A DNA stretch of 64,000 nt, taken from positions 434,001 to 498,000 of the forward strand of contig NZ_JACHHN010000003.1 in NCBI RefSeq assembly GCF_014202765.1. Direction: 5' to 3'. Positions 16,511-59,382 of this stretch are shown piece by piece. The position numbers and the translations under genes were made by a program. The stretch is from Silvimonas terrae (GTDB lineage Bacteria; Pseudomonadota; Gammaproteobacteria; Burkholderiales; Chitinibacteraceae). Position 1 is the stretch's first letter. Each line of letters opens with the position of its first letter. A model generated the notes under the pieces. The model worked only from the letters and a program-made list of their open reading frames with translations. It was not told where the DNA came from and ran no database searches.

Positions 16511-17692
16511 CTAAACGCGTTCTGCTGACGGAAAACCATGCCGGCGGGAGCGCAAGGTCACAATCAGTGCGGGCAACAGCAAGGCTATCAAGGCAAACGG
16601 AAAGATCGTGGCGCCTTCGCGCTGCAACAACAAACCGCCGCCAACACCGGCCGCCGCCATGGCGATATTCCACACCGTCACGATCATGGACTGCGCCACC
16701 TCGGCCGCACTGCCTGCCGTTTTGGCCGATGCGGTCTGGAACAAGGTCGCCGCCCCGCCCCAGGCCAGCCCCCACACCGCAATGGCGCCAAACACCGTCA
16801 CCGCACTGTGATTCCAGAACCCGAGCGCGCCTGCCGCCGCCAGAAACAGCACGGTGCTGGCCAGTACCAGTTGCCGCAGCCAGCGGTCGACCAGCAGCCC
16901 GACCACCCACACGCTGGCCAGTGCCACAATGCCAAAGGCCAGCAAGATCAGATCAACCCGGTCGGCCAGCCCGGACGGCACCAGAAACGGGGCGATGTAG
17001 GTGTACAAGAGGTTATGCGCCAGCACAAAGGTCAGCGTCACAAACAGGACGGCACGAATGCCGGGCAACATGAACACCTCTGCAATCGACCGCTGTTGCC
17101 CCGCTGTTTGCCCAGGGTAGTCCGGAATCCGCAGCCACATCCAGCCGGCCAGCCCAAGCGCAATCAGGCTCATGCCGCCAAAGGCAAACCGCCAGCCCGC
17201 ATGAATACCCAGAAAGGTGGCCGCCGGAATACCCACCGACAGCGCCAGCGGAATACCCGCCATGACGATCGCCATTGCCCTGCCCTTGAGCTGATCGGGC
17301 ACCAGCCGGGAGGCATACCCAGCCACCAGAGACCACAACAGCCCGGCAAATACGCCCGCAAAAAAGCGCGCCACCAGCGTCAGTTCATAGTGGCCGGACA
17401 ACGCGGTCACGGCATTGGTGACGGCAAAGCCCAGAATGGCCACGGCCAGCAGCGGCCGCCGCCGCCAGCTTTGGGTAGCGGCCGTTAGCGGAATAGCGGT
17501 CAGCAAGGTGCCAAGGGCATACAGGCTGACCAACTGGCCGGCCAGGGCTTCCGACACCCCCAGCCCTGCGCTCATCTGGCGCAATAATCCGGCCGGTAAG
17601 GCCTCGGTCAACACGGTAATGAATGCCACCAGGGCCAGCGCCAGCAAGGCGGGCAAGGGCAAGCGGTCAGTGGATGGGGTTGTCGCAGACAT
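16511..17692 (-). CDS. MFS efflux transporter, DHA1 (AraJ/SotB-like)
   Basis: 393 residues, 12 predicted TM segments. The TM1 region with FITVLTEALPAGLL and the TM5 motif GIPAATFLG place it in the AraJ/SotB/NepI group of DHA1 exporters, which export sugars, nucleosides or drugs. It has no motif A of the canonical form (seen instead: AATQSWRRRPLL). It converges on the TetR-type gene 12 bp away and diverges from a LysR-family gene at 17839, its likely regulator. Confidence 0.88.
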   Translation of the reverse strand: MSATTPSTDRLPLPALLALALVAFITVLTEALPAGLLRQMSAGLGVSEALAGQLVSLYALGTLLTAIPLTAATQSWRRRPLLAVAILGFAVTNAVTALSGHYELTLVARFFAGVFAGLLWSLVAGYASRLVPDQLKGRAMAIVMAGIPLALSVGIPAATFLGIHAGWRFAFGGMSLIALGLAGWMWLRIPDYPGQTAGQQRSIAEVFMLPGIRAVLFVTLTFVLAHNLLYTYIAPFLVPSGLADRVDLILLAFGIVALASVWVVGLLVDRWLRQLVLASTVLFLAAAGALGFWNHSAVTVFGAIAVWGLAWGGAATLFQTASAKTAGSAAEVAQSMIVTVWNIAMAAAGVGGGLLLQREGATIFPFALIALLLPALIVTLRSRRHGFPSAERV

Positions 17693-56834: not shown

Positions 56835-56946
56835 AACTGCTCGTATCCACAATTCGATTTGGAGAAAGTCGCGGATTTTATCCCTGTATTCAAGGCTCTG
56901 TCAAACCTGAATGTGTCGGGATGCGCTAACACTGACATACGGTGGT

Positions 56947-57036
56947 AAAAAAAACGCAATCCTGGTCTGGATTGCGCTGAATTCCACCAAAGAAGGAGGA
57001 TGGAGGAGACAACATCAAGGCGAACCTTGACGTTGC
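56947..57036 (-). ncRNA. Candidate trans-acting small RNA with anti-Shine-Dalgarno loops
   Basis: About 90 nt on the minus strand. Order of elements: a stable hairpin AACGTCAAGG-TTCG-CCTTGATGTT with a UUCG loop; a CU-rich single-stranded stretch with two CCTCC boxes (TCTCCTCCATCCTCCTTC); and a terminator hairpin CGCAATCC-AGACCA-GGATTGCG followed by eight T. A -10/-35 pair lies upstream. No gene lies on this strand between the promoter and terminator. The layout is that of Hfq-dependent sRNAs that block ribosome binding sites, as in the Neisseria sibling sRNAs (by recall); targets are unknown. Confidence 0.75.
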
Positions 57037-57042
57037 GATTTG

Positions 57043-57072
57043 AGTATATGACAAACAGCTAAATCGTTTCAA
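57043..57072 (-). promoter_or_regulatory. Sigma70-like promoter of the candidate sRNA
   Basis: On the minus strand: TTGAAA (57072-57067), 18 bases, TATACT (57048-57043). A start near 57036 would give the ~90-nt transcript that ends at the T run 56954-56947. Confidence 0.7.
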
Positions 57073-57197
57073 GCAGAAATTGTTGCAATGCCGCAATCCA
57101 GGCAAAGTCCGCCGCGGCTGGCCGCACGCCAGGTTGAAAGGCTACAATCTTGCACCACATATAATCTTTATATTCAGACCGACACGCGGGATTGATA

Positions 57198-58728: not shown

Positions 58729-59382
58729 TTAGAAGCGGTACGCCAGGGATGTCATGATCTTTGAAGTGCCCGCCATCAGACGCACTACCGGGGCGGGCAG
58801 CGGCACCCCGCCCATGTCTTCGGCCAGATGGGCGTGCTGCATTTCATCGGTATGCATCTGTTCAACGACAGCACGGCTTTTGGCGTCTTGCGGCGGTAAT
58901 TCCAGCAGGTGTGATTGCAGGTGCGCCCCAACCTGGCGCTCGGTTTCGACCAGGAAACCCAGATTCCACTTATCCCCGATCACACCAGCTGCCACGCCCA
59001 GCGCAAGACTACCTGCGTACCATAGTGGGTTGAGTACGCTGGGGTGACTCCCCAGATCATGCAGACGGTGTTCGGTCCAGGCCAGGTGCTCTACTTCTTC
59101 ATGCGCAGCATGGCGCAAGGCATTTCGCGCAGCCGGGTCACGTGCAGTCAGGCTCTGACCTTGATACAAGGCCTGGGCGCAGACTTCGCCGGTGTGATTG
59201 ACGCGCATCAGGCCGGCGGCATGCGCCTTGTCAGCCTCGGTCATGTCGGCCTCATCGATATGCGCATCCGGATGTGCCCGTTCGCTCATGGCCGGCGCGG
59301 CCAGGGTGCGCAACATGACATCAAACTCGCCAATGAGGCGATCAACGGACGGCAGGACGGGCAGACGAGGCAAAGGCAGCAT
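58729..59382 (-). CDS. coq7: Demethoxyubiquinone hydroxylase Coq7
   Basis: 217 residues, ferritin-like di-iron protein. The iron ligands lie in the motifs HTGEVCAQAL, HEEVEHLAW and DEMQHAHL. It hydroxylates 2-polyprenyl-3-methyl-6-methoxy-1,4-benzoquinol in ubiquinone synthesis. Typical for betaproteobacteria, which use Coq7 and not UbiF. Confidence 0.95.
   Translation of the reverse strand: MLPLPRLPVLPSVDRLIGEFDVMLRTLAAPAMSERAHPDAHIDEADMTEADKAHAAGLMRVNHTGEVCAQALYQGQSLTARDPAARNALRHAAHEEVEHLAWTEHRLHDLGSHPSVLNPLWYAGSLALGVAAGVIGDKWNLGFLVETERQVGAHLQSHLLELPPQDAKSRAVVEQMHTDEMQHAHLAEDMGGVPLPAPVVRLMAGTSKIMTSLAYRF

Follow-up and report, generated by a model that had tools for sequence, protein, structure and literature searches.

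A small RNA of the RF02278 family in Silvimonas terrae and a PhaR-type palindrome at its promoter: sequence evidence for a possible link to the PHB store

Which signal might control a small RNA (sRNA) gene that lies between two other genes and has a promoter and a terminator of its own? The question arises in the window analyzed here, a 64,000-nucleotide stretch of the Silvimonas terrae genome (contig NZ_JACHHN010000003.1, positions 434,001 to 498,000). An initial annotation, made from the letters alone, had placed an sRNA gene on the minus strand between rplM, encoding ribosomal protein L13 (PF00572; 56406..56834, minus strand), and an osmC-like gene (PF02566; 57192..57617, plus strand). The sequence bears out this position, with osmC divergent. 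The predicted transcript extends over 56946..57036 (minus strand), its start being placed about 7 nt past the -10 element. The promoter, hairpin and terminator of the annotation are likewise all present. The -35 element, TTGAAA (57067..57072, minus strand), and the -10 element, TATACT (57043..57048, minus strand), both located by a promoter scan and an alignment of 30 loci, are separated by an 18-bp spacer and give a σ70-like promoter with a 10/12 match. In 3 kb, the scan gave 2 sites of this quality, compared with 1.3 expected by chance; since the score by itself is not above chance, the promoter call depends on conservation: CTTG in the -35 element is invariant in 30/30 aligned osmC-rplM intervals from the bacterial family.

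The transcript would begin with a 12-bp hairpin capped by UUCG (57009..57036, minus strand), identified by fold and covariation. This is followed by a CU-rich seed region, UGUCUCCUCCAUCCUCC, with a weak second hairpin (56983..57011, minus strand; model match, fold and alignment) and by an intrinsic terminator, a stem (56978-56953) with a T run (56947..56978 in all, minus strand; sequence, fold and covariation). Across the same 30 loci the seed is nearly invariant and the terminator nearly or fully so, which, together with the -35 element, gives the conservation among relatives to which the annotation had looked for support. The folding energy of the 92-nt sRNA strand is -38.1 kcal/mol (z -6.8), a value equaled by 0 of 200 shuffles. 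Compensatory change, also sought by the annotation, is found in the 5' hairpin: among 23 sequences, 7 of its 12 pairs show changes on both sides, with 93.5% of cells paired, and a control in which the pairing partners were shifted abolished covariation for the whole structure. Two details need qualification. Of the two CCUCC boxes thought to be unpaired, the second does lie in a loop; the first is unpaired in the centroid alone, the minimum-energy fold placing it in a weak hairpin of 6 bp. Similarly, the absence of a protein-coding frame holds for ORFs of at least 60 aa, none of which covers 56949-57036, so that a coding gene of this size was rejected; four ORFs of 29-59 aa do overlap the sRNA, and the 59-aa ORF begins upstream of the predicted transcription start. 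Beyond the terminator comes a conserved promoter belonging to rplM itself (TTGACA-18-TAAAAT; 56875..56904, minus strand; sequence and conservation in the alignment). Thus, the sRNA gene stands apart from rplM and is not its leader.

The 3' 66 nt of the sRNA (56946-57011) match the Rfam family RF02278, "Betaproteobacteria toxic sRNA," with 51.4 bits against a cut-off of 50 (model positions 1-64), leaving the UUCG hairpin outside the model. The CU-rich seed, double hairpin and T-run terminator of this family are all present. Structure, covariation, synteny and the match to a named family therefore support an sRNA gene whose product has anti-Shine-Dalgarno arms; by sequence, the RNA is new only as a member of a family already known, and the novelty implied by the initial annotation falls away. 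It had also likened the RNA to the sibling sRNAs of Neisseria. The likeness is real, since the NmsR/RcoF siblings (RF02877) share the layout of 5' hairpin, CU-rich single strand and terminator and NmsRb aligns with an E value of 0.0013, but it is distant: at 33.5 bits, below the cut-off of 52, NmsR membership was rejected. The window sRNA may nevertheless work like NmsR.

The window sRNA is the sole RF02278 match in its genome. At E 0.001, matches occur in 37/43 genomes of the bacterial family (only 8/43 above cut-off) and in 80/120 sampled genomes of the order (49/120 above cut-off), counts that may miss weak matches because the profile search applies stricter filters above 40 genomes. In all 30 loci fetched from its own family, the sRNA is flanked by osmC and rplM, with osmC divergent. 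By its best rplM matches (92% and 87% identity), the lineage is near Chitiniphilus, which belongs to Chitinibacteraceae, and Andreprevotia. Farther afield, 29 of 80 named rplM loci have a seed-plus-terminator pattern in the 800 nt that precede rplM, although for 7 of the 80 the available upstream sequence was shorter than this; loci with the pattern include those of Pseudogulbenkiania, Azoarcus, Thauera, Cupriavidus, Pandoraea and Burkholderia, and none of the Neisseria, Comamonas or Methylotenera loci listed among the 80 has it. This distribution points to an old sRNA locus upstream of rplM.

Upstream of the -35 element is a palindrome that was missed in the first reading of the window. The sequence TTGCGGCATTGCAACAA (57080..57096, minus strand) ends 7 nt before the -35 element and matches the PhaR motif of Ralstonia eutropha at 16/17 positions; in the own-family alignment of the osmC-rplM interval, a TGC-N3-GCA palindrome precedes the -35 element. 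PhaR is a regulator that senses PHB granules, and the phasin gene is its classical target. In the accessible portions of the published reports, on which the literature cited here and below is based, the PhaR site is given as TGCRNYGCASMA in Bradyrhizobium diazoefficiens and as YTKNTGCRNYGCANMAR in R. eutropha, and PhbF of the betaproteobacterium Herbaspirillum seropedicae has a footprinted site, TG-N-TGC-N3-GCAA. The window site agrees with the 12-mer motif of B. diazoefficiens at 10-11 of 12 positions (11/12 at best) and is one conserved base off TGC-N3-GCA. The genome contains 121 palindromes of the R. eutropha type (at most 1 mismatch) and 134 exact 12-mers, compared with 41 and 40, respectively, for the reversed patterns. 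It also carries phaR (PF07879 at G000:C12:57187), which shares with a divergent phasin gene an intergenic region having exact 12-mer sites at two places; a second phasin gene has two more. Within the family, phaR is present in 43/43 genomes, so that no contrast is possible there, and the 12-mer score is 10 or less in 9/30 loci despite phaR in all genomes.

Since the palindrome idea arose in the own family, it was tested on other genomes of the Burkholderiales (GTDB sense). The sample comprised 112 of about 135 sRNA places in 120 genomes, 4 own-family and 19 low-scoring places being omitted. Each locus was scored by its closest 12-mer match in the 150 nt upstream, and phaR status was taken from PF07879 on the same 120 genomes. 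In these data 20 genomes lacking an sRNA match and 17 lacking PF07879 do not appear by name, unlisted genomes being counted as phaR-negative from their absence among 83 PF07879 hits; two phaR-negative assemblies, G139 and G131, are 87% and 85% complete. The exact 12-mer precedes 34/85 sRNA loci in phaR-positive genomes, where fewer than 1 would be expected, versus 0/27 in phaR-negative genomes. With at least 11/12 matches, the counts are 56/85 versus 0/27, a site of this quality not being found within 150 nt upstream in the other 29 of the 85. The background for the exact site is 0.35% in shuffles and 0.77% in other windows of the same loci, and about 7% for at least 11/12. The count was also made per bacterial family: a site of at least 11/12 is present in 21/24 families with phaR versus 0/12 without it, or in 19/24 versus 0/12 when each family is represented by one locus, chosen by its sRNA score. 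A 17-mer used in the same way gave a weaker contrast (at least 15 matches in 46/85 versus 2/27). Thus, a tie between the site and phaR across genomes is established at the level of sequence. Of the 29 named rplM loci that have the sRNA, some from species that overlap the own-family sample, 18 have an exact site and 7 others a match of 11/12; at one of the other 4, Cupriavidus gilardii, an exact site lies just past the 150-nt limit.

Other features were seen at sRNA loci of other genomes. Six phaR-negative loci (L130, L131, L132, L134, L137 and L139) share another upstream element, resembling TTGC...ATATTAGA/ATATTCTA. Two genomes of one bacterial family (G048 and G096; for example, loci L182 and L231) contain 8-9 RF02278 copies each, some of them arranged in tandem at distances of a few hundred bases, with a PhaR-type site at only some copies.

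A second connection to PHB is found in the same sample. Six of the 112 sRNAs (L248, L252, L253, L233, L239 and L246) begin 3-107 nt past the stop codon of a same-strand phasin gene, a count enriched by choice, since two of the six, from the low-scoring G157 and G063, were fetched ahead of other low-scoring places because they are near phaR. The phasin assignment (PF09361) holds in 6/6, with one barely above cut-off, and in 5/6 phaR lies divergently beyond the phasin gene. These sRNAs are weaker RF02278 matches (33-40 bits); none has the exact 12-mer upstream, and one has an 11/12 match. From their position, they look like phasin 3'-UTR sRNAs.

What is reported for known relatives gives an indication of function. 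RF02278 is the family of ncS03, ncS05, ncS27 and ncS62, the "double-hairpin RNAs" of Burkholderia cenocepacia, which were found by dRNA-seq. Like the window sRNA, they have a CU-rich single strand, two 3' hairpins and a terminator; unlike them, the window sRNA has a covarying UUCG 5' hairpin. A 5' extension and processing are described for ncS27. In glucose medium the levels of ncS03, ncS05 and ncS27 increase 4- to 8-fold and in biofilm 3- to 10-fold; starvation also raises them, about 3- to 4-fold. Over-expression of ncS27 slows growth; such growth inhibition is reported for RF02278 members and not for the window sRNA. PhaR control of the ncS RNAs is not mentioned in the accessible RF02278 literature on them. 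S17 of Bordetella pertussis, reported to be similar to RF02278, has the same type of seed as the window sRNA and represses genes with complementary ribosome sites: its absence raises the expression of 92 genes, 70 of which are complementary at or near these sites. S17 differs in having a 190-nt long precursor that is cut by RNase E and in having been studied under Bvg control; a word search of the accessible text of the S17 paper found neither PhaR nor PHB. S17 adjoins coq7, and coq7 (58729-59382, minus strand) is also two genes upstream of the window sRNA, so that the two sRNAs may occupy the same ancestral place. Outside the own family, coq7 is near 16/112 of the sRNA loci examined. Finally, a precedent for a PhaR-controlled sRNA is MmgR of Sinorhizobium meliloti, whose promoter has a PhaR (AniA) site that is bound in EMSA and repressed (PMC12542648). 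MmgR differs in being alphaproteobacterial, of another family (alpha-r8) and class, and linked to phasin control (PMC12542648, PMC8401924).

Taken together, a reading that we consider likely is that this RF02278 sRNA is made from its own σ70-type promoter, is repressed by PhaR until PHB builds up, and then uses its CU-rich arms to block mRNAs for uptake and catabolism. When PHB is scarce, PhaR would occupy the palindrome beside the -35 element and keep the promoter low. With carbon in excess, PHB granules would form and draw PhaR to themselves, allowing the sRNA to be made; its CU-rich arms could then reduce translation by pairing with Shine-Dalgarno regions, chiefly those of mRNAs for uptake and catabolism. 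Binding of PhaR, repression as the sign of control and the targets at this locus are what we infer. The chain from PHB to a higher sRNA level and then to a block of uptake is drawn from the reported movement of PhaR from DNA to PHB granules as they form, the rise of the ncS RNAs in glucose medium and the targets of S17. Counted against repression by PhaR are the imperfect window site, the phaR-positive loci with no good site, the weaker contrast given by the 17-mer, the fact that phaR status follows clades, the 134 exact sites in the genome, the ability of PhaR to activate as well and the rise of the ncS RNAs under starvation too.

The strongest alternative is that this is an ordinary RF02278 sRNA, PhaR is uninvolved, and the palindrome is bound by another regulator or is simply inherited promoter context. 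That the window palindrome is imperfect and that several phaR-positive relatives have no site would fit this idea, and phaR and the site could have vanished together in some lineages for unrelated reasons. However, the contrast between phaR-positive and phaR-negative loci, which is also seen by family, argues against it, as do the phasin-linked copies, and we regard it as unlikely. A second alternative, that PhaR activates the gene and the sRNA is made at low PHB, seems less probable still. Such a role has examples, since phaP3 of R. eutropha and a number of B. diazoefficiens genes are activated by PhaR, and in the window the site is just upstream of the -35 element; yet at R. eutropha phaP1 a site directly upstream of the -35 element belongs to a repressed promoter, and the ncS RNAs rise in glucose medium. 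Also against activation, 15 of the 34 exact sites are on the -35 element of the best-guess promoter, centered at about -29 (calls that use the letters of the box and are thus not independent of the site); 12 are directly upstream, at about -48 to -50, and 7 are elsewhere. Sites on or next to the -35 element suit repression that is relieved by PHB. Least of all can the sRNA be a leader or attenuator of rplM, a very improbable reading that was rejected: rplM is close by on the same strand in 30/30 own-family loci, but a strong terminator and a distinct conserved promoter intervene, only 36/112 loci elsewhere show rplM in the fetched stretch (BLAST), and related sRNAs are reported as short independent transcripts.

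Possible targets of the seed were sought in two ways. Calculated duplex energies of the seed region with 63 predicted starts in the window and three pha genes gave a median of -10.9, versus a mean shuffled median of -11.5; the real sRNA thus did not outperform its shuffled versions, a result that speaks neither for nor against the broad anti-Shine-Dalgarno action proposed in the initial annotation. A strict genome search for GGAGGAGAYR before ATG returned 6 sites, versus 1 for the reversed pattern. Four lie ahead of plausible genes, whose products are a solute-binding protein of the sugar type, an MFS transporter, a CBM56 protein and a DUF2909 protein; the ORFs that follow the other two have 9 and 24 aa. 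As targets, the genes behind these sites are candidates only. In the MFS transporter gene (16511-17692, minus strand), 10 nt of the seed can base-pair with the start region, GGAGGAGATA. The start region of the CBM56-domain gene (G000:C8:125109-125385, L263), GGAGGAGACA, is complementary to the seed, and an exact PhaR palindrome lies about 250 nt upstream of this gene.

What is new, as far as sequence can indicate, is the proposed wiring of an RF02278 sRNA to PhaR. A word search of the main texts of the papers listed for RF02278, and of a review (PMC10987360), found no link to PhaR, phasin or PHB, and none of the papers listed for combinations of such terms joined an RF02278 sRNA name with PhaR; nor did the accessible part of PMC8401924, on MmgR, yield a link to RF02278. 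An upstream motif common to three homologues is given in Fig. S3 of Sass 2017, and this figure, or Sass 2019 on NcS27, could already contain the PhaR-type motif.

RF02278 sRNAs, which are widespread in the order, slow growth or carbon use in Burkholderia according to the accessible reports, and their trigger is not stated in the literature covered. On balance, we lean toward the view that across the Burkholderiales (GTDB sense) they may form the RNA arm of the PhaR regulon: as granules release PhaR, phasins and sRNA would rise together, and uptake and catabolism would be braked so that the influx of carbon matches storage. The wiring would have been reached by two routes, either through a PhaR box in the promoter of the sRNA gene or through an sRNA behind a phasin gene, with phaR-negative lineages having no box. 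If true, the link to PhaR would make the state of the PHB store the defined signal for these sRNAs, in keeping with their higher levels in glucose medium and in biofilm. It would also add to bioplastic metabolism a post-transcriptional layer, one that is open to testing in standard PHB producers.
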